Source: Streptosporangiales bacterium (lineage in GTDB: Bacteria; Actinomycetota; Actinomycetes; Streptosporangiales; Streptosporangiaceae). Taken from it: a stretch of DNA of 38,511 nt. The notes below the pieces were generated by a model. That model was not told where the DNA came from, did not search any database, and saw nothing but the letters and a program-made list of their open reading frames with translations. The stretch lies in the NCBI GenBank assembly GCA_009380095.1, contig WHSL01000031.1, positions 1 through 38,511 of the forward strand, in the 5' to 3' direction. Positions 3,030-29,386 of the stretch are shown piece after piece. Each line of letters opens with the position of its first letter. Within the stretch, counting starts at the first letter, position 1. The position numbers were made by a program, and so were the translations under genes.

Positions 3030-3764
3030 ATGTCCGCCACCACGGCCGTGCTGCGCGCCGAGACCCGGCTGTTCCTCCGCGAGCCCGGCAGCCTGTTCTG
3101 GATGCTCGTGTTCCCGTCCATCCTGGTCGTGATCATCGGGCTCATCCCGCCGTTCCGCGAGCCCGGCGCCAACGGGCTGCGCGTCGTCGACATGTACGTG
3201 CCGATCGCCGCCCTGCTCGCCATGATCATGGGCGCCCTGCAGGCGCTGCCCCCGGTGCTGACCGGCTACCGGGAGCGCGGCATCCTGCGCCGGCTGTCCG
3301 TCACACCCGTCCGGCCGTACGCGCTGCTCGCCACCCAGATCGGGCTGCACGCCGCGTCCGTGCTCGGCTCCACGCTGCTGGTGCTGGCCGTCGGACGGCT
3401 CGCCTTCGGCGTGGCCCTGCCCGGGCAGCCCGTGGGCTACGTCGTGGCCCTGGTCCTCGCGACCCTGGCCGCCCTGTCCATCGGCGCCGCGATCAGCGCG
3501 GTCGCCACCACGACCAAGGCCGTCACCGCGATCGGCTCGGTGGTGTTCATCGCGTCCATGTTCACCGCCGGCGTGTGGGTGCCGATCCAGGTCCTGCCGG
3601 AGACGATGCGGCAGATCATCGGCGCCACCCCGTTCGGCGCCGCGGTGCGGGCCCTCGACCAGACCATGGCGGGGAGCTGGCCGTCCCTCCTCCACCTCGG
3701 CGTGACCGCGCTGTGGACCGTCGTGCTGGTCGCGGTCGCGGTCCGCTGGTTCCGCTGGGAATGA
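3030..3764 (+). CDS. ABC-2 type permease
   Basis: A 244-residue membrane protein with about six hydrophobic helices, including LFWMLVFPSILVVIIGLIP (residues about 21-39), the helices around ALLAMIMGALQAL, and a last helix near ALWTVVLVAVAVRWF. It has the ABC2_membrane pattern: a charged loop TGYRERGILRRLSVTPVRP after the second helix and a conserved GVWVPIQVLPETMR stretch before the last helices. It lies 1 nt downstream of the ATPase and would form the homodimeric pore of that exporter. The kinase gene begins 19 nt after the stop, so all four genes are probably one transcript. Confidence 0.9.
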   Translation: MSATTAVLRAETRLFLREPGSLFWMLVFPSILVVIIGLIPPFREPGANGLRVVDMYVPIAALLAMIMGALQALPPVLTGYRERGILRRLSVTPVRPYALLATQIGLHAASVLGSTLLVLAVGRLAFGVALPGQPVGYVVALVLATLAALSIGAAISAVATTTKAVTAIGSVVFIASMFTAGVWVPIQVLPETMRQIIGATPFGAAVRALDQTMAGSWPSLLHLGVTALWTVVLVAVAVRWFRWE

Positions 3765-3783
3765 GAACCGGGACAATCGGCTC

Positions 3784-5022
3784 ATGGCCGATCTGCGTGC
3801 GCTGTCCGAGACGCGCCGGGAGCAGTTCTACCGGTGGGCGCCGCCGGGCCTGCTCGGCCTCGCGACGCTGATCGCGGCCGCCACCGCCCCGGTGTTCCTG
3901 GACGCCACGGAGCGCTGGACGGCGGCCGCGCTGGTCGCCGCGGCGATGCTGGTGCAGCTGACCTGGGGCCGGGTGCGGCGCACCCGGCCGGACCCGAGCC
4001 CGGCCGGCCTGGCGTACTTCGTGATCCGGTACGTGCTCGCCTTCGTGCTCACGTACCTGAACCCGTTCTTCTCGATCTACGCCGTCGCGGGCTACTTCGA
4101 CGCCGGCCGGCTGCTGCCCCGCCGCGGCGTGCTGCCCGGCGCGCTGGCCACCGCCGTGATCATGGCCGGTGCCCAGACCGGCGGGCTTCCCCCGCGCGAC
4201 GCGGTCACCTGGGGGGCGTTCGGCGCGCTGCTCGTGCTGCACGCCACCCTGGTGCTGGTCTTCACCCATCTGGAGGGCAAGGACGCGGAGCGTACCCAGG
4301 CCAACGAGACCGCCATCGTCGAGCTCGAGCGCACCAACGCCCGGCTGGAGGAGGCCATGGCGGAGAACGCCGCGCTCCACGCCCAACTGCTCGTCCAGGC
4401 CCGGGAGGCCGGCGCGGACGACGAGCGGCACCGGCTGGCGGCGGAGATCCACGACACCATCGCCCAGGGGCTGACCGGCATCATCACCCAGCTGCAGGCC
4501 TCCGCCGACGCCGCCGACCCGGCCACCGCGCGGGCGCACGTGCAGCGGGCCGCCGAGCTCGCCCGCAACAGCCTGCGCGAGGCCCGCCGGGCCGTACGGG
4601 ACCTCGGCCCCGGCGCGCTGGAGCACGACGCGCTGCCCGAGGCGCTGAAGAAGGCCGTGGACGACTGGTCCGGCGCCTCCTCCGTCCCGGCCGCGTTCAC
4701 GGTGACCGGGACCGTGCAGCCGCTGCACGACGAGGTCGCCGGCACCCTGCTGCGCATCGCCCAGGAGGCGCTGGCCAACGCCGGCCGGTACGCGCACGCC
4801 GGCCGCGTCGGCGTCACCCTCTCCTACATGGACGACGAGATCACCCTCGACGTCCGCGACGACGGCCGCGGCTTCGACCCGGCCGCCGTGGCCGGCCACG
4901 GATTCGGGCTGGCCGGCATGCGCGCCCGGGCCGAGCGGCTGGCCGGCTCGCTGGAGGTGGAGTCCGCGCCGGGTGCGGGCACCGCCGTCTCCGCCCGCGT
5001 ACCGTTGGTGCGCCATGCCTGA
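3784..5022 (+). CDS. NarL-type sensor histidine kinase (HisKA_3)
   Basis: A 412-residue kinase. Residues about 20-162 hold four or five membrane helices with short loops, so the sensor is membrane-embedded and not a large extracellular domain. A coiled coil follows (about 165-208, Glu/Arg/Ala-rich). The dimerisation helix has the phospho-acceptor His223 in RHRLAAEIHDTIAQGL. The HATPase_c domain (about 315-408) shows the N-box QEALANAGRYA (Asn332) and the G-box DDGRGFDP...GFGLAGMRAR. Its end overlaps the response regulator start by 8 nt. Small membrane-embedded kinases next to ABC exporters often sense membrane or cell-envelope stress; that is an inference here. Confidence 0.93.
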   Translation: MADLRALSETRREQFYRWAPPGLLGLATLIAAATAPVFLDATERWTAAALVAAAMLVQLTWGRVRRTRPDPSPAGLAYFVIRYVLAFVLTYLNPFFSIYAVAGYFDAGRLLPRRGVLPGALATAVIMAGAQTGGLPPRDAVTWGAFGALLVLHATLVLVFTHLEGKDAERTQANETAIVELERTNARLEEAMAENAALHAQLLVQAREAGADDERHRLAAEIHDTIAQGLTGIITQLQASADAADPATARAHVQRAAELARNSLREARRAVRDLGPGALEHDALPEALKKAVDDWSGASSVPAAFTVTGTVQPLHDEVAGTLLRIAQEALANAGRYAHAGRVGVTLSYMDDEITLDVRDDGRGFDPAAVAGHGFGLAGMRARAERLAGSLEVESAPGAGTAVSARVPLVRHA

Positions 5023-5665
5023 ACCAGCACAGCCTGACCACGTCATCACCGTGCTCATCGTCGACGACCACCCGGTGGTCCGCGACGGCCTGCGCGGCAT
5101 GTTCGCCGCCGCTACGGGCTTCGAGGTGCTCGGCGAGGCGGCCGACGGCGTCGAGGGGGTCCGCCTCGCCGCCGAGCTCGACCCCGACGTGATCCTCATG
5201 GACCTGCGAATGCCCGGCGGAGGCGGCGTGGCCGCCATCGCCGAGCTGGCCCGGCGCGGGCAGCGGTCCCGCGTGCTGGTCCTCACCACCTACGACAGCG
5301 ACTCCGACACGCTGCCCGCGATCGAGGCCGGCGCCACCGGCTACCTGCTGAAGGACGCGCCGCGCGAGGAGCTGTTCACCGCCGTACGGGCCGCCGCCGA
5401 CGGCCGCACGGTGCTGTCCCCCGCGGTCGCCTCCCGGCTCGTGTCGAGGGTCCGCTGCCCCGACGGCGAGCAGCCCCTGTCCGCCCGCGAGCTCGAGGTG
5501 CTACGGCTCGTCGCCAAAGGCCGCGCCAACCGCGCGATCGCCGCCGACCTGTTCATCAGCGAGGCCACCGTCAAGACCCACCTCACCCACATCTACGGCA
5601 AACTCGGCGTCTCCGACCGCGCCGCCGCCGTAGCCACCGCCTACCAACGCGACATCCTCAGCTGA
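5015..5665 (+). CDS. NarL/FixJ-family response regulator
   Basis: A 216-residue regulator. The receiver domain has the acidic pair D17/D18 (VLIVDDHP), phospho-acceptor D63 (VILMDLRMPGG), switch Thr near 91-92 and Lys113 (YLLKDAP). The C-terminal LuxR-type helix-turn-helix spans about 153-212 (LSARELEVLRLVAKG, then ISEATVKTHLTHIYGKLGV). The start is ATG 5015, inside the last codons of the kinase (8-nt overlap). The frame is open further upstream, but an earlier start would add residues before the natural beta-1 strand. It is the probable partner of the kinase and controller of the ABC exporter operon. A long hairpin follows the stop. Confidence 0.93.
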   Translation: MPEPAQPDHVITVLIVDDHPVVRDGLRGMFAAATGFEVLGEAADGVEGVRLAAELDPDVILMDLRMPGGGGVAAIAELARRGQRSRVLVLTTYDSDSDTLPAIEAGATGYLLKDAPREELFTAVRAAADGRTVLSPAVASRLVSRVRCPDGEQPLSARELEVLRLVAKGRANRAIAADLFISEATVKTHLTHIYGKLGVSDRAAAVATAYQRDILS

Positions 5666-14990: not shown

Positions 14991-16226
14991 TCAGAGGCCG
15001 GCGGCGTTGAGCAGCCGCTCCTTGGTGTTGTCGGGGTCGTCGACGTCGTTCCAGTCGAGGGTGCCGGCGTTCTGCAGCGCCGCCTTCACCTGCTCCGGAG
15101 TGGCGCCGGGGTTGTTCGCCTTGAACAGCGCGGCCCCGCCGGCGACGTGCGGCGACGCCATCGAGGTGCCAGAGATCGTGTCCGTGCCACCGTCGTTCCA
15201 GGTGGACAGGATGCACACGCCGGGCGCGATGATGTCGACGTCGTTGCCGAAGTTGGAGAAGTCGGCGAACGTGTCGTCCTGGTCGGTGCGGCAGGTCGGC
15301 CCCCCCGCGCCGCCCGGCGCGCCGTCGAAGTCGGCCAGCGCGCTGACCGTGATGACCTCGTCGTAGGCCGCGGGAGTGGACTCGGCCGCGTCCGCACCGT
15401 CGTTGCCCGCCGCCACCGCGTAGGTGACGCCGGCGTCCACCGAGGCGCAGATCGCCTGGTGCATCGGGTCGTCGTTGGTGTTGCCGCAGTTGCCGTCGTC
15501 GGTGCCGCCGCCGCCCAGGGACATGTTGGCGACCTCGATCTCGTCCGCGTGCTCGGTCACATAGTCGATCCCGCAGATGATGTCGGAGGTGAGGCCGACG
15601 CCCAGGTCGTTCAGGACCCGTACGGGCCACAGTCGCGCGCCCGGTGCCATGCCGACCACGCCGTCGCCGTTGTCCAGCGCGCCGATGGTGCCGGCCACGT
15701 GCGTGCCGTGCCCGTTGCCGTCGTTGGGGCCGAGCCCGAGGGCGCAGTTCCGCGCCCCGGCCGTGTTGACGTTCAGGTCCGGGTGGTCGAGGTCGATGCC
15801 GGTGTCGATCACCGCGACGTCGACGTCCACCCGCTCGTCGTTACCGTCGATATCCGCGGTCGCGCTCTGCTCGGCGTCCGCACGGTCGATGCCGGTCGGC
15901 AGCGTCTGCGCGGTCGCCCGCACGGGCCGGTCGGGGGCCACGTAGGCCACCCGGGAGTCCCGCGCCACCGCGGCGGCGTCGGCCGGCGACATCTTCGCCG
16001 CGTAGCCGCGCAGCGCGCTCCCGTACACCGTGGACACCGTGGCATCGGCGGCCGTGGCCAGCGTGCGGGTCACGGATGGGGCGCTCGCCGGGGTGACGGA
16101 GTCCTTGAAGACGACGATGTAGCCGCGGGGTGCCGCGTCCGCCGAGGCCGAAGCGGGGACGGCCTCGGCGGCGGCACCGGCCACCAGGGTCAGAGCGGCG
16201 GTCACGGCCCAGAGTCTCTTGCGCAT
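14991..16226 (-). CDS. Secreted S8 family peptidase (subtilase), copy 1
   Basis: A 411-residue preproprotease. A Sec signal peptide covers about 1-29 (MRKRLWAVTAALTLVAG, ending near ASASA). An I9-type inhibitor propeptide covers about 33-105 (GYIVVFKDSVTPASAPSV; YVAPDRPVRA). The catalytic domain has Asp141 (VAVIDTGIDLDHPDL), His173 (GNGHGTHVAGT), oxyanion Asn275 (AVAAGN) and Ser355 (SGTSMASPHVAGG). Six cysteines in the mature part could form three disulfides. The start is ATG 16226 after GGAG; the open frame continues far upstream but that part is antisense or shadow sequence. It lies directly downstream of a close paralogue, with its own terminator. Confidence 0.94.
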   Translation of the reverse strand: MRKRLWAVTAALTLVAGAAAEAVPASASADAAPRGYIVVFKDSVTPASAPSVTRTLATAADATVSTVYGSALRGYAAKMSPADAAAVARDSRVAYVAPDRPVRATAQTLPTGIDRADAEQSATADIDGNDERVDVDVAVIDTGIDLDHPDLNVNTAGARNCALGLGPNDGNGHGTHVAGTIGALDNGDGVVGMAPGARLWPVRVLNDLGVGLTSDIICGIDYVTEHADEIEVANMSLGGGGTDDGNCGNTNDDPMHQAICASVDAGVTYAVAAGNDGADAAESTPAAYDEVITVSALADFDGAPGGAGGPTCRTDQDDTFADFSNFGNDVDIIAPGVCILSTWNDGGTDTISGTSMASPHVAGGAALFKANNPGATPEQVKAALQNAGTLDWNDVDDPDNTKERLLNAAGL

Positions 16227-16304
16227 GCCTGCTCCAGTCTCCCCCGAGCGTGTTCCTTCGGGCCCCGCGTCCGCAGCCCGCGCCGTGTCGGCCAGCGGCG
16301 GCGT

Positions 16305-16330
16305 GGGCTCCCCAGTCTCCCAGGGAGCCC
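16305..16330. terminator. Hairpin between the two subtilase genes
   Basis: GGGCTCCC and GGGAGCCC form a perfect 8-bp stem with a 10-nt loop, 22 nt past the stop of subtilase 2. The loop and stem resemble the hairpin after subtilase 1 (shared CAGTCTCCC-type core), so the terminator was duplicated together with the gene. The two proteases are therefore probably separate transcripts. Confidence 0.7.
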
Positions 16331-16351
16331 TCTCCGCGGATTCGGCAGGGG

Positions 16352-17584
<1,233 letters not shown>

Positions 17585-18042
17585 GCGTGCTCCTTGCCTG
17601 TACCCCCGAGCCTGTGTCGTTTGCTCCCTTTTCCTCACGCCCGAGCGGCGCGTCCGGTTCAGACGCGACGCGGCGCGGCACGGGCGGCTCGGGGGTACGT
17701 CACCCCGCGGATCCCCGGAGGGACACCGCGGCGGCGGCGCACGGGAGCGCTCGGCCGAGCAACCGCCAGGCTACGTCGCGTACAACTTCCCGCCTAGACA
17801 AAACCGGCAACTTCCCCCCTTTCGCCCAGCCCCCGCCCGTCCCGCCGGCGTGACGACGGCCGGGCCGCCCCCGCGATGAGGGTGGGCGGAGCCCCGCGGC
17901 GGTTCGGTGGCTCCGCCGGCGGAGGGCGGCGGAGGCCGGGGGAGGCCGGGGGCCGGCGGGGCGATTCGCGTGGCCGCTCGGCCGACGGAGAGGCGGGGAG
18001 GCGGGGAGGGGTGGTCAGTTCGGTGGGTGGTCAGTTCGGTGG
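17585..18042. other. Gene-poor G-rich region upstream of subtilase 2
   Basis: No convincing complete gene was found. The region should hold the promoter of subtilase 2, but no clear -35/-10 pair was recognised. A direct repeat CAACTTCCC occurs at 17783-17791 and 17808-17816 (25-nt period). From about 17920 to 18010 there are many G-runs (units like GGAGGCCGGGG and GGCGGGGA) with G-quadruplex potential on the plus strand. At 18011-18026 and 18027-18042 a 16-nt unit (GTGGTCAGTTCGGTGG) is perfectly duplicated. Confidence 0.6.
18011..18042. repeat. Perfect 16-nt tandem duplication
   Basis: GTGGTCAGTTCGGTGG occurs twice, head to tail, without a mismatch. Sixteen is not a multiple of three, so if the surrounding plus-strand frame was ever coding, the duplication would have shifted it. 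It immediately precedes the possible gene remnant ending at 18142. Confidence 0.85.
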
Positions 18043-18219: not shown

Positions 18220-18561
18220 TCAGGCCAGCGCGTCGGTGACCTCGCGGGCCAGCCGGGACTTCGAACGTGCCCCGACGATCTGCTTGACCAGCTCACCCGA
18301 GCGATAGACCTGGATGGTCGGGTTGGCCATCACCCCGTTGCGGGCCGTCGTCAGCGGGTTCTCGTCGGTGTTGATCTTCGCGACCATCACCCGGCCCTCC
18401 CACTCGGCGGCCAGCTCCGCCAGCACCGGCGCCAGCTGGTGACACGGCGGGCACCAGTCCGCCCAGTACTCCAGCACCACCGGCAGCTCGCCGCCCAGCA
18501 CCACATCCTGGTACGAGCCGTCGGTGACGACCACGACCTCCCCCGGAACCATCACGCTCAT
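18220..18561 (-). CDS. Thioredoxin with CPPC active site
   Basis: A 113-residue single-domain thioredoxin. The active site is ADWCPPCHQLAPVL (Cys37/Cys40), with Pro in place of the canonical Gly of WCGPC. The cis-Pro segment is present (GVMANPTIQVYRSGE). There is no signal peptide, so it is cytoplasmic. It reduces protein disulfides; the CPPC dipeptide should shift the redox potential relative to standard TrxA. Start ATG 18561 lies 5 nt after the stop of the MerR gene; ATG 18552 is an alternative three codons in. It could also serve the thioredoxin-dependent ArsC domain encoded at 686-1516, which is speculation. Confidence 0.92.
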   Translation of the reverse strand: MSVMVPGEVVVVTDGSYQDVVLGGELPVVLEYWADWCPPCHQLAPVLAELAAEWEGRVMVAKINTDENPLTTARNGVMANPTIQVYRSGELVKQIVGARSKSRLAREVTDALA

Positions 18562-18566
18562 CCCGC

Positions 18567-19013
18567 TCACACCCCTTCTCCACGGACACCGTTCCCGACG
18601 GAGAAGAAGCAGCGCGGCTCGCCGGACTCCAGCACCGGGACCGCCGGCCCAGCCGCGGCGCGCTCCCGGAGCGCACCCTCCAGCTGCCGCGCGACGTGGT
18701 CCCGTACCGTACGCATCCGCTCCAGGCAGGCGTCCAGCTCGCCCAGCTTCCGCCGGTAGACCGCGATCGAGTCGGGGCAGGTGTCCCCGGCCTCGTGCCC
18801 GTCCCGCAGGCACTCCACGAACGGCCGCGTCTCCTCGAGCCCGAATCCAAGCGCCAGCAGCGAACGGATCTCCCGGACCACGCGGAGGTCGTCCTCGCCG
18901 TAGTCCCGGTACCCGTTGGACGTCCGCCGGGCCCGCAACAACCCCTGCGCCTCGTAGTACCGCAGCGCCCGCGCCGACGTCCCCGCGAGCTCCGCCAACT
19001 CCCCGATCCGCAC
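18567..19013 (-). CDS. MerR family regulator, Cys-containing
   Basis: A 148-residue regulator. The N-terminal MerR winged helix is RIGELAELAGTSARALRYYE, with GLLRARRTSNGYRDYGEDD as the wing. A dimerisation helix and a loop with two Cys follow (VECLRDGHEAGDTC), then further Cys in LDACLERM and near the C-terminus (EPRCFF). Such cysteines suit metal or thiol-redox sensing. The start is GTG 19013, with GGAGG 4 nt upstream; the longer open frame lacks such a site. It is co-transcribed with the thioredoxin gene 5 nt downstream and is probably its regulator. Confidence 0.9.
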   Translation of the reverse strand: MRIGELAELAGTSARALRYYEAQGLLRARRTSNGYRDYGEDDLRVVREIRSLLALGFGLEETRPFVECLRDGHEAGDTCPDSIAVYRRKLGELDACLERMRTVRDHVARQLEGALRERAAAGPAVPVLESGEPRCFFSVGNGVRGEGV

Positions 19014-19428: not shown

Positions 19429-20343
19429 TCAGACCTGGATGCTGAAGATGATCGCGCCGCGCAGCGCGAGCACCCCCGCGAGCACCAGGAGCGGTACGGC
19501 GACCGGGGCGACCACGGCCTCCCCGGTCGGCGACAGCCGGTGCACCACGAGCCCCCGCAGCCCGGGAAGCAGCCCCGCCAGCACCACGATCCACAGCAGC
19601 AGCCAGGGGAAGCCGAAGACCAGCCCCTGCGTGCCGGCCCACAGCAGGGTCAGCACGAACACCACGATGAGCGCGCCCTCCAGCAGCGCGTACAGGCGCT
19701 CGGAGACGGCGAGCATGCCGAAGCTCGCCCTCGCCTCCGGCCGGTACCGGGTCAGGAACATCAGCAAGGCCGCGGAGCCGGACAGCCCGGAGGCGAGGAA
19801 GAGCCCGCCGAGCGCCCACGTGTCGCTCCACACCGGCTGGTTGGAGACGGCCAGCAGCACCCCGGTGTAGCCCGCGATGAACAGCGCGAACACCATTCCG
19901 ACCACGGCGAACACCTTGCCGAGCAGGCCGTCCATGACCCGTACGAGCCAGTCCGTCAGCCCCATCCGCAGCTTGCCGTCCCGGGCCAGCGTCTCGGCGA
20001 ACGAGACGGTGGCGATGCCGGAGTAAACGATCAGCGCCCAGACGCCCAGCGACATCGGGGACCAGTACTTGAAGTTGAGCCCCGCGTCGCCCGGCGTCAG
20101 GTTCCAGATCATGTGCCAGAACCGCAGCGGCGTGCCGAGGTCGAGGATGAGCAGGATCGGGCAGATCAGCAGCGGCGGCCAGGCCGCGTAGTAGCCGAGC
20201 CTGCTCAGCGGCGCGTCCTCGGGCGCGCCGCGCAGCCGGAGCAGCGTCGCGATCGTGTACGAGCCGCCGGACAGGCCGGCCAGGAAGAAGTAGAACAGGA
20301 TGTACCAGAGCCAGTCCGGCGGGGCTACGAAGTGCTCAGCCAT
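19429..20343 (-). CDS. NrfD/PsrC-type membrane anchor of formate dehydrogenase
   Basis: A 304-residue protein with eight to nine membrane helices, e.g. WLWYILFYFFLAGLSGGSY, AAWPPLLICPILLILDLG, VFAVVGMVFALFIAGYTGV and LVFGFPWLLLWIVVLAG. The opening helix with GLSGGSY and the pattern DLGTPLRFWHMIWN are typical of NrfD/PsrC, quinone-binding anchors without heme. In E. coli FDH-N this place is taken by the cytochrome b subunit FdnI, so the electron exit differs. It overlaps the beta-subunit gene by 8 nt and is the last gene of the operon. Function: passing electrons from the Fe-S subunit to menaquinone. Confidence 0.9.
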   Translation of the reverse strand: MAEHFVAPPDWLWYILFYFFLAGLSGGSYTIATLLRLRGAPEDAPLSRLGYYAAWPPLLICPILLILDLGTPLRFWHMIWNLTPGDAGLNFKYWSPMSLGVWALIVYSGIATVSFAETLARDGKLRMGLTDWLVRVMDGLLGKVFAVVGMVFALFIAGYTGVLLAVSNQPVWSDTWALGGLFLASGLSGSAALLMFLTRYRPEARASFGMLAVSERLYALLEGALIVVFVLTLLWAGTQGLVFGFPWLLLWIVVLAGLLPGLRGLVVHRLSPTGEAVVAPVAVPLLVLAGVLALRGAIIFSIQV

Positions 20344-21229
20344 CGGCCTTCTCCCTCGCCTCCGCGTCCGGCGTGTCCGCGGCGCCGGCGGTCCCGTCCG
20401 GCGCGCCTCCGGCGGTCGCCTCGGCCGGCTCCGGGGACTGGCCCCGCCGCCGAATCGCGATCAGCCCGCCGAGCACCCCGAGCACGCCGGTGACCAGCGC
20501 CCCCAGGTACCCGGGGATGTTGTTGCGGCTGGGCAGCACCGCGTTCCGCTCGTTCGGCAGCCGGTACGCCGAAGGCTCGTCCATGAGCAGGAAGAACGCG
20601 TTGAGCCCGCCATAGATGGAGTCATCGGCCCCGTACAGCCGGGCCTTGCTCACGCCCGCCGCGTGCAGCGCGTCCACCCGCTTCTGGGCCGACTCGCGCA
20701 GCACGTCCACCTCGCCGAACTGGATGGACTCGGTCGGACAGGCCTGCGCGCAGGCCGGCATCATGTCGCCCTGCAGGCGGTCGTAACAGAGCGTGCACTT
20801 CTGGACGACGCCGGTCGTCTCGTTCGCGCCGATCACGTCGTACGGGCAGGCCGCGATGCAGTCCCGGCACCCGTTGCACACGTCGGGCTGGATGAACACG
20901 CTGTCGAACTCGGTGCGGATGATCGCCCCGGTGGGGCAGACCTCCATGCAGCTGGCCTGCTGGCAGTGCTTGCAGACGTCCGACATCATCAGCCAGACCG
21001 AGCCCTGCCCGGAGCCGAGCGTCTGGTCGGGCACGTTGTCGTGGAACTGCACGTGCCGCCAGTTCTCGGCGTCGAGGCCGCCGGTGTTGTCGAAGCCGTC
21101 GAGGAACGACGGCTCGTGTCCCTCCAGCAGGTTCCACGTCTTGCAGGCCACCTCGCACGCCTTGCAGCCGATGCAGACGCTGGTGTCGGTGAAGAAGCCG
21201 TAGGCCTTCCCGGGCGTGATCTCCGGCAT
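20336..21229 (-). CDS. fdhB: Formate dehydrogenase beta (4Fe-4S) subunit
   Basis: A 297-residue electron-transfer subunit with four ferredoxin motifs: CIGCKACEVACKTWN (about residue 18), CKHCQQASCMEVCPTG, CNGCRDCIAACPYDV, and CTLCYDRLQGDMMPACAQAC. A C-terminal single membrane helix (about 247-265, YLGALVTGVLGVLGGLIAI) with a charged tail ties it to the membrane, as in FdnH. ATG 21229 lies 2 nt after the fdhE stop, and its end overlaps nrfD by 8 nt. It links the active-site subunit to the quinone-binding anchor. The C-terminal tail (Ala/Glu-rich) is longer than needed and probably disordered. Confidence 0.94.
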   Translation of the reverse strand: MPEITPGKAYGFFTDTSVCIGCKACEVACKTWNLLEGHEPSFLDGFDNTGGLDAENWRHVQFHDNVPDQTLGSGQGSVWLMMSDVCKHCQQASCMEVCPTGAIIRTEFDSVFIQPDVCNGCRDCIAACPYDVIGANETTGVVQKCTLCYDRLQGDMMPACAQACPTESIQFGEVDVLRESAQKRVDALHAAGVSKARLYGADDSIYGGLNAFFLLMDEPSAYRLPNERNAVLPSRNNIPGYLGALVTGVLGVLGGLIAIRRRGQSPEPAEATAGGAPDGTAGAADTPDAEAREKADG

Positions 21230-21231
21230 GG

Positions 21232-21960
21232 CTAAAACCCCATCAGGTTGGGACAGATCTTGCTGAGTCCCCGTTCGGCGGCATAGAGCTGGAGCGGCAG
21301 CGCGGCGAGCTCGTCCACCTCGGGTACGGCCCGCGGGTCACGCCCCAGGTCGACGTCGATCAGGTACCGGTGGCAGGACTCGCACCCCTCGATCCGCAGC
21401 TGCGGCAGCATCGCGTCCCCCGACACGTCGCGGCGCCCCACGGCGGGCTCCCCCGGCACCTCCTCGGCGTACACGGTGCGCTCGCTGCCGGAGGTCTCCC
21501 CGCAGCCCGCGCAGGTGCTGGCGGAGAACGCCCAGTCGTGCCGGCAGTACCCGCAGCGCAGCAGACGCTTCCCGCTGACCAGCTTCTCCGCGCCGCCGGA
21601 GCGGTACGACAGCACCGCCGGGCCGCCGCACCGCGGGCAGTCGCCGTCGCCGGCCTGCGGCCGGTACGGCCCCACGGCCCCCGAGGCCCGCGCCAGGTAG
21701 AACGCGGCCGCGTCGAGCTCGGCGCCACCGGCCCACGCGTCCAGCACCGACACCTCGGCGGCCCGCGCCGCCTCGGCGAGCGGCGCCGGACCGTACGCCT
21801 CCGTGGCCTTCACGACCAGCGGAAACGCCTGCTCGGGCGGCAGCTCCTGGTCCCACACGTCGAGCAGGGCCAGGTAGAGCGTGAGCACCTCGCGGGCGTA
21901 CGGGTACCGCTCGCGCAGGTCCTCCGCCCGAGCCCGGTGCTTGCCCCGGCCCTCCATCAC
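21232..21960 (-). CDS. fdhE: Formate dehydrogenase accessory protein FdhE
   Basis: A 242-residue cytoplasmic protein with an N-terminal helical domain and a C-terminal rubredoxin-like metal-binding region. The Cys pairs are CPRCGG, CGYCRHDW, CAGCGE and CESCHRYL, the FdhE pattern. FdhE binds the Tat-directed catalytic subunit and helps its maturation before export. It overlaps the alpha gene by 4 nt (ATGA) and precedes the beta gene by 2 nt, so it is made right after alpha. In E. coli fdhE lies at the end of the fdo operon; here it is second. Confidence 0.92.
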   Translation of the reverse strand: MMEGRGKHRARAEDLRERYPYAREVLTLYLALLDVWDQELPPEQAFPLVVKATEAYGPAPLAEAARAAEVSVLDAWAGGAELDAAAFYLARASGAVGPYRPQAGDGDCPRCGGPAVLSYRSGGAEKLVSGKRLLRCGYCRHDWAFSASTCAGCGETSGSERTVYAEEVPGEPAVGRRDVSGDAMLPQLRIEGCESCHRYLIDVDLGRDPRAVPEVDELAALPLQLYAAERGLSKICPNLMGF

Positions 21961-24900
21961 ATCTTCTCGATGTTGACGAGGAACGCCTTGAACTCCGGCG
22001 TACGGGCGCTCGCGTCGCCCACGAACGGGGTGAGCGCGTTGGCCAGCCAGTGCTGGCCGGTGTTGATGCCGACGAACCCCCAGTGGATCGGGATGCCGAT
22101 CTGGTAGACCTGCTTCCCGTCCACCGTGAGTGGGCCGAGCCGCTTGGTCACCACGGCGCGGACCTCGAGCTTCCCGCGCTTGGAGCTGACCCGCACGTGG
22201 TCCCCGCTGGCGATGCCCTTCTCCTTGGCGAGCTGCTCGGGCACCTCCACGAACGCCTCCGGCTGCAGCTGCACCAGGTGGCTCACGTGCTGGGTGACGT
22301 AGTGCTCGTGCTCGGTGAGGCGGTAGGAGGTGGCGACGTACGGGAAGTCCGCCGCCGTCCCGAACCGGTTCGGCCGCCCGGCCTTCTCGTCGTACAGATG
22401 CGCCGCCGGAGTGGTCGAGACGTCCGGGTGCAGCGGGTTCCGTACCGGCGACTCGACCGGCTCGTAGTGCTCGGGGAACGGGCCGTCCGCCACCCCGTTG
22501 CTGAAGATCCGCGCGACGCCCTCACCGGTCATGATGAACGGCAGCGGCGCGTCGTCGCCGGGCTTCGCGTCCGCCGGATAGTCCGGTACGTCGCCGATCC
22601 ACTTGGCGCCGTCCCAGAAGATCCCTGGCCGCTTCGGGTCCCACGGCTTGCCCTGCTCATCGGCCGAGGCACGGTTGTACAGCACCCGCCGGTTGAGCGG
22701 CCAGCTCCACCCCCAGTTGTGGTAAAAGCCCATGCCGGTCGGGTCGTTGCGCTTCGGGTCCTGGATGCCGGCGCGGCGCTTGGCGAAGTTGCCGGCCTCC
22801 GGATAGGAACCGGAGTAGATCCAGTCCCCGGCGGTGGTGGACCCGTCGTCCTTGAGGTCGGCGAAGCTCTCCAGCCGCTTGCCGTTCCTCAGGTCCGTGC
22901 CGTTGATCTCCTTCGCGAGCTCGTCGAGCGTGGGCTTGCGCGGGTCTCGGTACGGCAGCGTCAGCTGGCGGATCGGGTCGGGGTGGCGGCCGCCCTGGCT
23001 CTCGTACTGTGCCTTCACCCGGGCGAACAGCTCGGCGAGGATCCAGTGGTCGTGCCGCGCCTCCCCCTCCGGCGGGAGCACCGCGTCCTTCCACTGCGAC
23101 CAGCGGCCGCTGTTGACGAACGAGCCGTCCTTCTCGATCCAGTGCGTGCAGGGCAGCAGGAACACCTCGGTCTGGATGTCCCGCGGGTTCGCACCCGGCG
23201 CCTTCCAGAACTCCGAGCTCGTGGTGGAGAACGGGTCCATCACGCACAGCCACTTGAGCTTGCCCAGCGCCTGCATCACCTGATTGGAGTCCGGGCCGAT
23301 GCTGGTGGCGGTCATCCCGGAGAGGATCAGCCCCTCCATCTTCCCGCGCAGCGCCTGGTCGAAGATCGTGATCCAGGACGCGTTGGAGGCGGGCTTCGGA
23401 ATGTGGTCGAAGGCGAACTCGTTGTCCTTGGTGGCGTTGTCGCCATACCAGGACTTGAGCAGGCTGACCATGAAGGCGCGGTAGTTCGTGCCGAAGAAGT
23501 TGAGCGCGTTGTCGTGCAGCTGCTTGCTGGCGCTCTGCTCGACGTAGTCGTCCAGGTTCTGCTGGCCCGGGGCGGGGATCCGCAGGTAGCCGGGCAGGAT
23601 GTCCCAGGAGATCGCGTGGTCGGTGTTGCCCTGGATGTTGGCGTGCCCGCGCTCGGCGTTCATGCCGCCGCCGGGGCGGCCCATGTTGCCGAGCAGCAGC
23701 TGCAGGATCGCGCCGGAGCGGATGAGCTGCACGCCGGTGGTGTGGTGGGTGAGGCCGACCGCGTACACGATCGTCATCACCTTGTCGGGGCGGCCCATCT
23801 CCCCCACCTGCGCGGCGACCTGCCGGAACTGCTCCACCGGGATGCCGGTGATGCGGGAGACCATCTCCGGGGTGTAGCGGCTGTAGTGCCTCTTGAGCAG
23901 GTTCAGCACGGAGCGGGGATGGTCGATGTCCAGCCGGGCGCGGTCGCCGTCGAGCTCGTACGCCCACTGCGAGGGGTCGTACGTGCCGGTGGCCTCGTCG
24001 TAGCCGTTGAACATGCCGGCGTCGAAGGAGTACCCCTCCTTCACCACGAACGCGGCGTTCGTGGCCCACCGTACGTACTCGTCGTGCTGCAGGTCGTTGC
24101 TCAGCACGTGGTTGATCAGCCCGCCGAAGTAGGCGACGTCGGTCCCGGTACGGACCCGCAGGTGCGTGTCGCTGACCGCGGAGGTCCGGGTGTACCGCGG
24201 GTCGCAGTGGATGATCTTGGCTCCGCGCTCCGTCTTCGCCTTCATCAGCCACTGGAAGCCGACGGGATGCGCCTCCGCCGGGTTCGCCCCGTTGATCAAG
24301 ATCATGTCGGCGTGCCGGATGTCACGCCAGTGGTTGGTCATGGCCCCTCGGCCGAACGTGGCGGCCAAACTGGTCACCGTCGGGCCGTGTCAAACGCGGG
24401 CTTGTTGCTCGATATGGACGACGCCGAGGCCGCGCATCACCTTCGTCGCGAAGTATCCTTCCTCGCTGCTGAACGCGGCGCCGCCCGCGAACGCGATGCC
24501 CTCGCACCGGTTCACCGTGTTGCCGTCCGCGTCCTCGGTGATGAACGTGTTGTCCCGGGACCGCTTGATATTCCTGGCCAGCCGGTTCAGCGCCTCCTCC
24601 CAGGAGAGGCGCTGCCAGTTCGCCTGGCCGGGCGCGCGGTACATCGGGTACGGCACCCGTCTCCGCGACACGCCCAGCTCCAGGGCGGTGGCACCCTTCG
24701 GGCAGAGCCGGCCCTCGTTGACCGGGCTGTCCGGGTCGCCCTCGATCTGCAGCAGCTCGGTGTGGCCGTCGTCCTTCTTCTTCGTGTACGCGAGCATCGC
24801 GCACCCGACGGCGCAGTACGGGCAGATGGTCCGGGAGACCTTCGCGCCCGCGATGCGGAGCTGCTGTTTCACCTCTTGGGCGGCTCTGAGGTCGAATCCG

Positions 24901-24980
24901 AGCGTGGAACCGCCGAGCGCGGTGCCGCCGAGTGCGCCGGCGCCGCCGATGCTCAGGAATTTTCGTCGACTGACGTCCAT
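21957..24980 (-). CDS. fdhA: Formate dehydrogenase alpha, selenoprotein (TGA = Sec197)
   Basis: One 1007-residue gene read through an in-frame TGA at 24390-24392. Before the TGA are a Tat signal (SRRKFLSIGGAGALGG, from about residue 4) and the 4Fe-4S motif CPYCAVGC...RLCPKGA. The context is VVHIEQQARV-U-HGPTVTSLAA, so TGA falls where selenocysteine FDHs have Sec followed by the conserved His. Sec197 corresponds to Sec196 of E. coli FdnG. The downstream frame is continuous to the end and full length, including IQGNTDHAISWD and the C-terminal molybdopterin domain (HWGFVGINTGQHW). The start chosen is ATG 24980 (GAGGGG 8 nt upstream); ATG 25034 is open but poor. It oxidises formate to CO2 at a Mo/W-bis-MGD centre, probably outside the membrane. 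It needs selA, selB, selC and selD, which are not in the window. Automatic annotation would split it into two genes. Confidence 0.93.
24360..24378 (-). promoter_or_regulatory. Bacterial SECIS-like hairpin after the Sec codon
   Basis: From 12 nt after the TGA the RNA can pair GGUG with CGCC (one G-U) and CCA with UGG, with one A-C mismatch between them and the apical loop GUU. The loop lies about 20 nt past the UGA and contains G and U, as required for SelB recognition in bacterial SECIS elements. It lies within the coding sequence. Confidence 0.65.
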
Positions 24981-25042
24981 GGCTGGGCCCCTCAGGTGGG
25001 AGTGCGCTGCCCTGCCCCCGTTGTCTGCGGACATGGATCACT

Positions 25043-25126: not shown

Positions 25127-25663
25127 TCAGCCGAAGGAGAGGTGCAGGTCCTGGCGCCCTTCCGGGTCGGCGGGGTTGCGCAAGATGTCCAGCAGGCGCG
25201 GCCCTGCGGGGACCACCACGCCGACGGCGCCCGCCTCGGCCGCCTCCCGCAGCGACTCGCGCCACGCGGCGCGCCCCCGCGGGACGGCAACGTCGGCCCA
25301 GCGCCGCCCTTCCGGGAGCACGCCCTCGGCCTCCGGCACGACGAGCCGGTCCCGCCCGATCGCCTGGATCGTGGCCAGCACCGGCTCCTCCGGCGCCCGG
25401 GCCGTCACCAGCACCAGCATCGCCCGGTACGTAACCGCCGCGAGCGCGGCCACGAGCGCGCCCGCGTCCATCCCGGGCTCGGGATCACCGATCCACAGCG
25501 CGTGAGCGCCCGCGGTCTCGTACGCCTCCGCCTCCCGCAGCCATTCGGCCACGTCGGCCGCGGGCGCCAGCCGCACGCCCACCTCGAGCGGCGCCGCGGG
25601 TGCGGGTTCGGCCGGGGGGCCGTGCTCGTCCTCGGACGGGGTGGGCGGGTCGGTGTCGGACAT
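25127..25663 (-). CDS. Hypothetical protein, luciferase-like TIM-barrel fragment
   Basis: A 178-residue protein. The first about 25 residues are Pro/Glu-rich and disordered. The rest alternates strands and helices: LEVGVRLAPAADVAEWLREAE, AHALWIGDPEPGMDAGALVA, TYRAMLVLVTARAPEEPVLA, GRDRLVVPEAEG. These recall the first half of F420- or FMN-dependent luciferase-like enzymes (about 300 residues). It is shorter and lacks recognisable flavin-site residues, so the assignment is tentative. ATG 25663 follows GAGGACCCAATG. The gene is 12 nt downstream of a membrane-protein gene on the same strand and may be co-transcribed with it. Confidence 0.6.
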   Translation of the reverse strand: MSDTDPPTPSEDEHGPPAEPAPAAPLEVGVRLAPAADVAEWLREAEAYETAGAHALWIGDPEPGMDAGALVAALAAVTYRAMLVLVTARAPEEPVLATIQAIGRDRLVVPEAEGVLPEGRRWADVAVPRGRAAWRESLREAAEAGAVGVVVPAGPRLLDILRNPADPEGRQDLHLSFG

Positions 25664-26401: not shown

Positions 26402-26952
26402 TCACGCGAAGGCGTCGGCGTGCGCGGCGGCCCATTGGCCGAACGTGCGGGCCGGGTGGCCGGTCACTTCCTGGACCGTGGTGTTCACCTGGGAGTCGTC
26501 CAGCGATCCGGCGACGTAGAAGTCGAAGAACGCGTCGACGTACTCCACCGGCATGGTCCGCGACATCTCGGCGTGGGCCTCGTCGTCCGGCACCGCCTCG
26601 AAGCGCAGGTCACGCTGCAGGACCTTGGCGAGGACACGCACCCGGTCGGCGGGCGGCAAAGCCTCCGGACCCGTCAGCCGGTCCGGCCCTGGTGTCCCTC
26701 CCGCGCGAACGCCTCCACCGCGACGGACGCGACGTCGGATGGGTCGATGCTCGCGATGGGCACTCCGGCGAACGGTGCCCGTACGACGTCCCCCGCCGCC
26801 ACCTGCGGAACCCACTGCAGGGCGTTGGACATGAAGCCGCTCGGCCGCAGGATCGTCCAGTCCAGCCCGGACGCCCGCACGAGGTTCTCCGACTCGGCCA
26901 TGCGCACCACCTCGGAGCCCACGTTCCCCGTCGCACGGGTCACCGTGATCAT
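26402..26952 (-). pseudogene. NmrA-like NAD(P)-binding protein, deleted and frameshifted
   Basis: The start is family-like (MITVTRATGNVGSEVV, with Arg where the Rossmann GxxGxxG first Gly stands). It then jumps in frame near 26900-26908 to MAESENLVRASGLDWTILR, skipping about 90-100 residues normally between. The next motifs are typical: PSGFMSNALQWVPQ, APFAGVPIASIDPSDVA. Near 26678-26684 the frame breaks (GRT, then RLTGPEALPPADRVR in another frame). A loss of four bases at a short ACC repeat would explain this. The C-terminus then reads to the stop at 26402. ATG overlaps the TioE-like gene stop by 4 nt, so it was its operon partner. It is non-functional as written. Confidence 0.82.
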
Positions 26953-27743
26953 CCGCGGCCTCCCGCCGTCGCCGTGCGGTCCTTCTTACCGTCCGCCAGG
27001 TAGGTGTGGAGGAGGGCGGAGGCCTCGAGCATGGCGGTGGCGCGGGCGGTGAGCTCGTCCTGGCGGCGGGCGATCGCCGCGCGCAGGGCCTCGCTCGAGC
27101 CCTCGCGGCGCAGCCCGTGCATCACCGGGGCGATCTGCGGCAGCGGGTAGTGCAGCCGCCGCAGCATGTCGATCATGCGGGCGTCGCGCAGGTCGGCCGC
27201 GCCGTACGTGCGGTAGCCGGTGACGCGGTCGCGCCCCGGCCGGAGCAGGCCGGCCGCCTCCCAGACCCGCAGCGCCGAAGGCCGTACGCCGAGCCGCCCG
27301 GCCACGTCCCCGATCGCCAGCCCACCCCGCGCTCCCCCATCCCCGGACGGCCGCCCTCCCGACCCGCCATCGCGCCCCTCGCCGCCGTCCGGCGGCCGGT
27401 CGCCGTCGACCTCCTGGGCGGCCACGGTCTCCAGGGCCTCGCTCGTCGCGCGCAGGTTGCGCCGCTGCTCGTGCAGGTCGGCATGGCCGGCGTCGATCAC
27501 GGCGAGCGCGGCGGGAACGTCGCCCCGGTGCACCGCCAGCATGATCGCCCGCGCCCGTTCGATCCCGTGCCCCCGCATCAGCGCCCGGTACGTGAGCAGG
27601 GCATGCCGATGCCGCGCCACGTACCGGCGATACCCGGACGGCGTCCGCTCCGTGGGCGGCAGGAGCCCCGCGTCCTCATAGTTACGGACCTGCTGGGTCG
27701 AGATCCCCGCGGCACGCGCCAGGTCGACGGGCCGCAGCGTCAC
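26949..27743 (-). CDS. Double-MerR (TioE-like) regulator
   Basis: A 264-residue protein carrying two complete MerR DNA-binding domains. The first (about 1-70) has LRPVDLARAAGISTQQVRNY and GLLPPTERTPSGYRRY. The second (about 141-210) has LAIGDVAGRLGVRPSALRVW and GLLRPGRDRVTGYRTYGAAD. A Gly/Asp-rich linker (about 113-140) separates them. This arrangement is that of TioE-family regulators, named from the thiocoraline cluster. The start GTG 27743 has GAGGA about 8 nt before it; an upstream GTG at 27779 is open but lacks a site. It is divergent from a UvrA-like drug-resistance gene, the probable target, and overlaps the NmrA-like remnant by 4 nt. Confidence 0.86.
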   Translation of the reverse strand: MTLRPVDLARAAGISTQQVRNYEDAGLLPPTERTPSGYRRYVARHRHALLTYRALMRGHGIERARAIMLAVHRGDVPAALAVIDAGHADLHEQRRNLRATSEALETVAAQEVDGDRPPDGGEGRDGGSGGRPSGDGGARGGLAIGDVAGRLGVRPSALRVWEAAGLLRPGRDRVTGYRTYGAADLRDARMIDMLRRLHYPLPQIAPVMHGLRREGSSEALRAAIARRQDELTARATAMLEASALLHTYLADGKKDRTATAGGRG

Positions 27744-27781
27744 CTCAGGGTTCCTCGGCGATTTGAAGGTTCGCACCACAG

Positions 27782-27832: not shown

Positions 27833-28800
27833 ATGGACTTCAATGAGAAACTTGAAGGCATGAACGACGGAGATGAAACACCGAAACGGCCGCACGGGCC
27901 ACCGGGCCCGGCGGTCCGCGAGGCCGACCGGCACGACATGATCGAGGTCCGCGGCGCCCGGGAGAACAACCTCGCCGACATCTCGGTGGACGTTCCCAAG
28001 CGCCGCCTGACCGTCTTCACCGGCGTCTCCGGCTCCGGCAAGTCCTCCCTGGTGTTCGCCACCATCGCCGCGGTACGGCGACCGACGCGCTCACCATGCT
28101 GCGCATCGTCTTCAGCCGGCTCGGCGAACCGTACGTGGGCCCGTCCAGCGCGTTCTCCTTCAACATCCCCGCCGGGCAGTTCCACGGCGAGGTGGAGCTG
28201 CAGCGCGGCGACGGAGAGCAGGCCTCCACCGAGGGCACCGTGCACGACGGCATGTGCCCGCGCTGCGAGGGGCTGGGCAAGGTCGCCGACGTCGACGTCG
28301 ACCGGCTCATCGACCGCGACCTCTCGCTGAACGAGGGCGCGATCACCGTCCCCGGCTTCCAGGTCGACGGCTGGTACTGGCGGGTGCTGGCCGAGTCCGG
28401 ATTCGTGGACCCGGACCTCAAGCTGCGCGACTACACCCCGCGGCAGTGGCAGGACTTCCTGTACAAGCCGGCCACCAAGATCCGGTCCGGCGGCGTCAAC
28501 ACCAACTACGAGGGCCTCGTCGTCAAGGTCAGGCGCATCTACCTGACCAGGGACCGGGAGTCCCTGCGGCCGCACATCCGCACCTTCGTGGACCACGCCG
28601 TCACCTTCACCGCCTGCCCGGACTGCGGCGGCTCCCGGCTCAACGAGGCCGCGCGGTCCGCGCGGTCCGCGCGGATCAACGGCCGGAACATCGCCGAGTG
28701 CGCCGCCATGGAGATCCGCGACCTGACGGCGTTCGTCCGCGCCATCGACGACCCGTCGGTGGGCCCGATGCCCACCACGCTGAGCGAAACCCTCGACTCG
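27833..28800 (+). pseudogene. UvrA-like drug-resistance ATPase, two deletions
   Basis: This resembles the DrrC/TioU class, UvrA-related ATPases thought to release DNA-bound drugs. After [15 protein letters not shown] and Walker [13 protein letters not shown] (about 28023-28058) the sequence jumps near 28070 to [20 protein letters not shown] in another frame, losing about 60 residues. The middle is then intact, with zinc-type pairs CPRCEG and CPDCGG and the helical stretch NEGAITVPGFQVDGWYWRVL. At about 28800, after TTLSETLDS, it ends. The C-terminal half with the second signature and Walker B is missing, and an ABC-2 permease fragment begins at once. ATG 27833 is the first start; no good ribosome-binding site was seen, and ATG 27938 is another option. 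Confidence 0.85.
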
Positions 28801-28801
28801 C

Positions 28802-29386
28802 ATGTTCACCCCGGGCGTGATGATGATGTTCGCGCTGTTCGGTTCGCTGTTCGTCGGCTTCAGCATGATCAACGAGATCCGGAACGGCTACCTGGAGCGG
28901 CTCGCGGTCAGCCCCGCCTGGCGACCCGCGATCGTGCTCGGCCGTACGCTGCGCGACATGATCATCCTGGTGCTGCAGGCGCTGATCGTGATCGCGCTGG
29001 CCTGGGCGATGGGGATGCGCGCGAGCGGTGCCGGGCTCGTGCTGATGCTGCTGCTCATGGCGGCGACCGGGCTGCTGGCCTCCGGGCTCTCGTACGGCAT
29101 GGCGCTGGCGCTGCGGGACGAGAACGGCATGTCGCAGATCCCGCAGTTCTTCGCGCTGCCGCTGATCCTGCTCACCGGCATCATGCTGCCGATGTCGCTG
29201 GCGCCGGAGTGGATGCGCGCGGTCGCCCAGTTCAACCCGCTCTACCACTCGGTCGAGGCGGGCCGGGCGCTCTTCGACGGCCACCTCACGGATGCGAGCG
29301 TCCCGCTGGCGTTCGGCCTCACCCTGGTCCTCGGCACCCTCACCCTCACCTGGTCCGTCTCCAACATGAAGAAGCTCGCCGGCTGA
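28802..29386 (+). pseudogene. ABC-2 permease, C-terminal remnant
   Basis: 194 codons of a DrrB-like permease: MMMFALFGSLFVGFSMINEI, the loop NGYLERLAVSPAWRPAIVLG, three to four helices (e.g. MLLLMAATGLLASGLSYGMA), the motif FALPLILLTGIMLPMSLAP and EWMRAVAQFNPLYHSVE. About 70-90 residues of the usual N-terminus, with the first helix, are lost at the join with the UvrA-like gene. Its partner ATPase gene is also absent. ATG 28802 happens to open the frame but falls on the deletion join, has no ribosome-binding site, and should not be taken as a native start. Confidence 0.8.

Follow-up and report, generated by a model that had tools for sequence, protein, structure and literature searches.

The window analyzed here, a stretch of 38,511 nucleotides from contig WHSL01000031.1 of a Streptosporangiales bacterium, contains a formate dehydrogenase (FDH) alpha subunit gene, fdhA, with a TGA codon inside its reading frame. 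Does this TGA end a broken gene, or does it encode selenocysteine (Sec)? Our analysis removes a false pseudogene reading of the locus: the TGA is almost certainly read as Sec, and the product of fdhA is the catalytic alpha subunit of an FDH-N type enzyme, presumably exported and membrane-bound, in which Sec197 would be a molybdenum or tungsten ligand and the UGA would be decoded by SelB with the help of a Sec insertion sequence (SECIS) element.

Reading frame and protein identity

The list of open reading frames (ORFs) breaks fdhA into a 214-residue ORF (24390-25034) and an 806-residue ORF with a GTG start (21957-24377). Translating the minus strand from 24980 to 21957 with TGA read as U gave 1008 steps, with U at codon 197, a terminal TGA at codon 1008 and no TAA or TAG, and a GAGGGG stretch stands a short way upstream of the ATG at 24980. 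The coordinates, frame and residue number 197 given in a preliminary description of this DNA are thus correct and, as it had said, the gene is otherwise intact, the sole interruption being the TGA at 24392-24390. The surrounding peptide is IEQQARV-U-HGPTVTSLAATFGRG, with His directly after Sec. An altered genetic code was set aside because there is just one internal TGA and the terminal TGA stops the protein near the end of Escherichia coli FdnG.

The protein scored 1266 bits against TIGR01553, the FDH-N alpha subunit model (curated cut-off 814), residues 2-1006 matching positions 1-1009 of the 1009 in the model. A phmmer search aligned residues 1-1006 with E. coli FdnG (1kqf_A) with an E-value of 3e-295 and placed residue 197 opposite the X of position 196, which we take to be Sec; this bears out the earlier placement of the residue one off from Sec196 of FdnG. 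Comparison with the Streptomyces albicerus homologue gave ratios of nonsynonymous to synonymous substitution of 0.31 for the 192 codons 5' of the TGA and 0.26 for the 810 codons 3' of it, and amino acid identities of 73% ahead of the TGA and 82% past it. Third-position GC is 0.90 ahead of the TGA and 0.97 past it. Both parts of fdhA thus look to be selected as protein.

Conservation of the TGA

Relatives were collected by a contig scan whose peptide patterns exclude the Sec site. It gave 86 loci, 80 of which were kept; the window, Nonomuraea gerenzanensis and two further genome loci brought the set to 84. TGA occupies the Sec codon in all 79 loci that cover it (77 by motif, and L100 and L105 by tblastn plus a codon check), a figure that includes the window itself (L020) and one record counted twice (L021, L062); the other five loci start past the site. 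By label the records belong to Actinomycetota, Chloroflexota, Dormibacterota, Rokubacteria, Eremiobacterota and further groups; many are metagenome-assembled genomes (MAGs), for which the label may be wrong. In a quick tree (approximate likelihood-ratio support of the SH-aLRT type, one-matrix model), the window protein grouped with other actinomycetes in a 21-row clade supported at 100. Among the 60 sampled genomes, an FDH of the window type, at ~78% identity, was seen in the host, G020 and G037 only (among the matches listed), a patchy spread that fits either transfer or loss.

A nonsense codon, arising either through recent decay of the gene or through misreading of a sense codon as TGA in sequencing, would suit two features of the window copy: its end branch (0.22) is the longest in the 21-row clade, and its hairpin, described below, is predicted to be weaker than the median of its relatives. 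This explanation was rejected on the conservation of TGA in every locus covering the site and the comparable purifying selection on either side of it. The SECIS match and the presence of sel genes also speak against it, and we put its chance as very small.

SECIS element and constraint on the RNA

A match to the Rfam model SECIS_3, lying over the TGA, is the only one in the window at gathering level; among 14 named control genomes the model matches one, E. coli. The terminal TGA at codon 1008 has no SECIS at the Rfam gathering score.

Codon choice past the TGA was compared over 72-base stretches of 75 loci, of which 61 were distinct, after dropping the duplicate L021 and one row containing N. 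The stretches show synonymous constraint: Ser is AGT, Thr is ACG and Ala at codon +10 is GCC in 61 of 61, and Leu is TTG in 56 of 61, even though this part of the window gene has a third-position GC of 0.97. L105, which falls outside the motif and so outside these counts, has ACT and GCA in place of ACG and GCC; the codon check shows that these changes amount to a compensating swap of G-C to U-A at the outermost SECIS stem pair. Another stem pair, formed by the third bases of codons +5 and +9, is paired in all 54 distinct 57-base sequences (45 G-C, seven C-G, two G-U), and none of 2000 shuffles reached pairing as high.

Sec-decoding genes and other FDHs of the host

The host assembly comprises 6.09 Mb in 413 contigs and is 97.27% complete. 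A genome search, as proposed in the preliminary description, found selA (348 bits, cut-off 267.9), selB (281, cut-off 242), selD (371, cut-off 125) and tRNA-Sec (71.9 bits; called SeC by ARAGORN, anticodon tca), all above curated cut-offs; the genes whose absence had been named as decisive against Sec, selB, selC and selD, are all present. The host also has fdhD (156 bits, cut-off 141). The sel genes sit on contigs other than that of the window, with tRNA-Sec on C217, selB on C176 and selA on C309. Contamination of the assembly was weighed by composition. In tetranucleotide usage, stretches of C217, C176 and C138 correlate at 0.99 with the window flanks, and their GC is almost the same; C67, which carries no sel genes, correlates at 0.965; for C309 the comparison with the window is one of GC alone. 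The fdh region correlates at 0.972 with its own flanks and at 0.966-0.979 with foreign homologous loci; these values are so similar that composition does not place the region.

Two further FDH genes with TGA were found in the host. One (C217:1974-5012, plus strand) is of the NF041513 type and shares the contig of tRNA-Sec. The other is shorter (C176, about 3090-5037, plus strand) and lies near selB and fdhD; its best model, TIGR01591, gave 643 bits, under the cut-off of 666. Neither gene has a SECIS at the Rfam gathering level; local folding gave a hairpin with a GGUCU loop in each.

A sister family as natural control

NF041513 ('formate_DH_Act') describes an actinobacterial FDH alpha family that is homologous to the window protein and has TGA or TGC at the equivalent site. 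Membership of the window protein in this family was considered and rejected: its score of 935 falls short of the cut-off, 1400, unlike that of the C217 gene of the host (1849), and it lies on the opposite side of a branch with support of 100. At the Sec site of the sister family, 19 of 27 loci (L023-L049) have TGA and eight have TGC; selA above cut-off is absent from seven of the eight TGC genomes.

TGA-containing FDH matches at E ≤ 1e-30 occur in 25 of the 60 sampled genomes, host included (among the matches listed), and for 22 of them a check placed the TGA at the Sec site, the other three being G002, G017 and G042. All 25 are among the 34 genomes with selA above cut-off; the other nine have no such match. 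Of 32 genomes with a window-type FDH, picked from the 80, 29 have selB above its cut-off, against 22 of the 60 sampled relatives and two of the 14 controls. The remark that selenoproteins are uncommon in actinomycetes is not borne out by these counts, nor is the rarity it implied supported, given the two additional TGA-FDH genes in the host and the actinomycete Sec-FDHs already published.

These data also bear on low-level read-through, in which an ordinary tRNA would put, for instance, Trp or Cys at the UGA. The predicted weakness of the window hairpin would favor such read-through; the host has tRNA-Sec, selA, selB and selD, codon 197 aligns with Sec in an FDH of solved structure, and the sister-family homologues with TGC lie, in seven of eight cases, in genomes lacking selA. 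Together these make ordinary read-through a most improbable source of the residue. Decoding of the UGA as Sec is well supported by these calculations, and we infer that this organism does read it so.

Evidence against Sec197 and the question of efficiency

Several observations weigh against Sec decoding. At the level of genes, the selA match is limited to model positions 108-453, its 5' part being lost at a contig end; selB is below cut-off in three of the 32 genomes with a window-type FDH (L075, L079 and L114), all MAGs; G030 has TGC despite selA above cut-off; and G028, which is 84% complete and has no selA above cut-off, yields a TGA-containing match that is weak (E 1.3e-18, among the matches listed). 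At the level of RNA, the window element exceeds the Rfam gathering score by just 1.5 bits, and five of six relatives tested miss that threshold. The covariation of codons +5 and +9 comes down to three changes on the tree, of which two are independent and fall on well-supported branches, a number too small for significance. The window hairpin, with its A.C mismatch, is predicted at -7.3 kcal/mol, weaker than the median of -11.8 for 54 distinct sequences, and its apical-pair probability is 0.04 (56 nt) against a median of 0.99. The minimum free energy fold of the 59-nt window element is another structure, not the SECIS hairpin (z -0.28).

The mismatch and the low pairing probability, along with the two additional TGA-FDH genes in the host, could mean that relatives insert Sec at this site but that the mismatched SECIS is inefficient in this species, the other two Sec-FDHs doing most of the formate oxidation. 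The codon would still be Sec, so this possibility is compatible with Sec197 and the odds of the two overlap. Set against inefficiency are the Rfam score, which still exceeds gathering, the purifying selection on the part of fdhA past the TGA, and the occurrence of an identical hairpin in two Chloroflexi loci. Because that same hairpin has an apical-pair probability of 0.99 in one (L077) and 0.08 in the other (L095), flanks evidently influence the predicted pairing. We consider an inefficient element unlikely. With Sec197 as the preferred reading, the A.C-mismatched SECIS is a natural variant that could be used to probe how much stem damage actinobacterial SelB tolerates.

Gene cluster and companion genes

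The features of the locus are collected in Table 1. The twin-arginine motif, picked out by eye, marks the leader as a putative Tat (twin-arginine translocation) signal.

Table 1. Positions of fdhA, its RNA and peptide elements, and the adjoining genes in the window
Feature	Position	Strand	Properties and basis
fdhA, FDH-N type alpha subunit	21957..24980	minus	1007 codons, predicted Sec at codon 197, TGA stop; read-through, TIGR01553, 1kqf_A
TGA codon 197, predicted to be read as Sec	24390..24392	minus	Read-through, relatives' codons, 1kqf_A alignment
SECIS element (Rfam RF01989, SECIS_3)	24337..24395	minus	64.5 bits, gathering 63; apical loop AGUUU; stem with one A.C mismatch
Putative Tat-type signal peptide MDVSRRKFLSIGG..., twin arginine	24897..24980, end approximate	minus	Aligned with MDVSRRQFF of 1kqf_A
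fdhE-like accessory protein, overlapping fdhA stop	21232..21960	minus	Pfam FdhE_C 29.4 bits (cut-off 27); TIGR01562 34.4, under cut-off 187.65
fdhB, ferredoxin-type beta subunit	20336..21229	minus	Pfam Fer4_11 90.6 bits (cut-off 26.2)
NrfD/PsrC-type membrane subunit	19429..20343	minus	Pfam NrfD 69.8 bits (cut-off 25.8)
Small conserved companion ORF, 178 aa, predicted alpha/beta barrel-like	25127..25663	minus	Distant likeness to luciferase-family and F420 enzymes

Of the 80 loci, 62 have room for the fdhA-fdhE-fdhB-nrfD order and 58 of these keep it, the exceptions (L113, L121, L125 and L130) being MAGs of Nitriliruptorales, Acidimicrobiia and Euzebyales. fdhB fails the FDH beta model TIGR01582 (145 bits, curated cut-off 334.7). 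The adjacent membrane protein matched NrfD and no cytochrome b family, the search for a gamma subunit of the FdnI type being confined to this cluster. A selA, selB or selD match lies within 15 of the 80 fdh loci, all labelled actinomycete, and the queries were actinobacterial, so that less closely related sel genes could have escaped them; tRNA-Sec lies within ten of the 56 loci scanned.

A homologue of the companion ORF stands directly upstream of fdhA on the same strand in 31 of 62 loci with room; counting any position in the locus, the number rises to 43 of 62. Eleven of 17 chosen homologues matched Pfam Bac_luciferase at E ≤ 0.1; the sole Pfam match of the window ORF is PEP_mutase, under its cut-off. 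Its AlphaFold model (predicted local distance difference test score 89) gave weak matches to TIM-barrel and F420-dependent enzymes. The ORF is linked to FDH by gene order only.

Near the FDH cluster, a thioredoxin-like protein (18220-18813, minus strand; Pfam Thioredoxin) has a WCPPC motif. Elsewhere in the window, two adjacent, similar subtilase-like ORFs seen by eye at 14991-17638 (minus strand; 16352-17638 matching Pfam Peptidase_S8) are apparently a tandem duplication, and a single ORF at 26949-27779 (minus strand) matches Pfam MerR DNA-binding domains in two stretches. At 27833-29386 (plus strand), the ORF list, judged by eye, has a UvrA-like ATPase seemingly split between two frames, with an ABC-2-like membrane protein after it; the split may be a frameshift or an assembly fault.

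Proposed mechanism

The mechanism we propose draws on what is generally known of SelB action, Tat export, FdhE function and NrfD electron transfer. SelB and Sec-tRNA-Sec would decode the UGA at codon 197, steered by the SECIS hairpin directly past the codon, and the terminal TGA would end the protein. By analogy with the protein families involved, the alpha subunit would be exported via Tat and hold a pterin-bound molybdenum or tungsten with Sec197 as ligand, and electrons would pass from formate through iron-sulfur clusters in alpha and beta to the quinone site of the NrfD-type subunit and on to the quinone pool. The FdhE-like protein may act in maturation. This suggests that selenium serves part of the formate oxidation in this actinomycete.

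A broader and distinctly tentative possibility, on balance doubtful, is that the Sec-FDH of the window is one member of a formate:quinone oxidoreductase lineage, FDH-N-like and anchored by NrfD, in genomes and MAGs that carry the labels Actinomycetota, Chloroflexota, Dormibacterota, Rokubacteria and Eremiobacterota, spread in part as an fdh-sel cassette, with the luciferase-fold ORF at 25127-25663 as a dedicated companion and perhaps a new FDH maturation or electron-transfer factor.

Comparison with known systems

The window system shares with E. coli FDH-N (FdnG/FdnH/FdnI, 1kqf) an alpha subunit aligning over its full length, the Sec column, the twin-arginine leader and the SECIS_3 match; it differs in having an NrfD-type membrane protein and an fdhE-like gene between alpha and beta. 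The membrane subunit of E. coli FDH-N, FdnI, is a cytochrome b. The predicted complex thus departs modestly from E. coli FDH-N, with an NrfD-type subunit in the place of cytochrome b.

The closest counterparts are in Nonomuraea, Streptomyces albicerus, S. smaragdinus, Amycolatopsis alkalitolerans and Rhodococcus rhodnii, whose alpha subunits are 77-80% identical to that of the window, have TGA and are encoded in the same fdhA-fdhE-fdhB-nrfD order; sel genes often adjoin the cluster in these relatives, whereas in the genome of the window they are on other contigs. A literature search on Nonomuraea, formate dehydrogenase and selenocysteine found nothing.

Other actinomycete Sec-FDHs have been described. 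Actinomycetospora chiangmaiensis DSM 45062 is reported to have three Sec-FDHs, two membrane-bound and one cytoplasmic, and to need selenium for formate removal (PMC7176365). The two membrane-bound alpha subunits given there (1078 and 1089 residues) are closer to the NF041513 model length of 1067 than the window protein is, a likeness of length alone. An FDH with UGA is noted for Amycolatopsis mediterranei in a second paper (PMC4048454), and the FDH alpha subunit is counted among the most widespread bacterial selenoproteins in a third (PMC5029168). With actinomycete Sec-FDHs already published, the Sec-FDH of the window adds one well-supported case to a known class.

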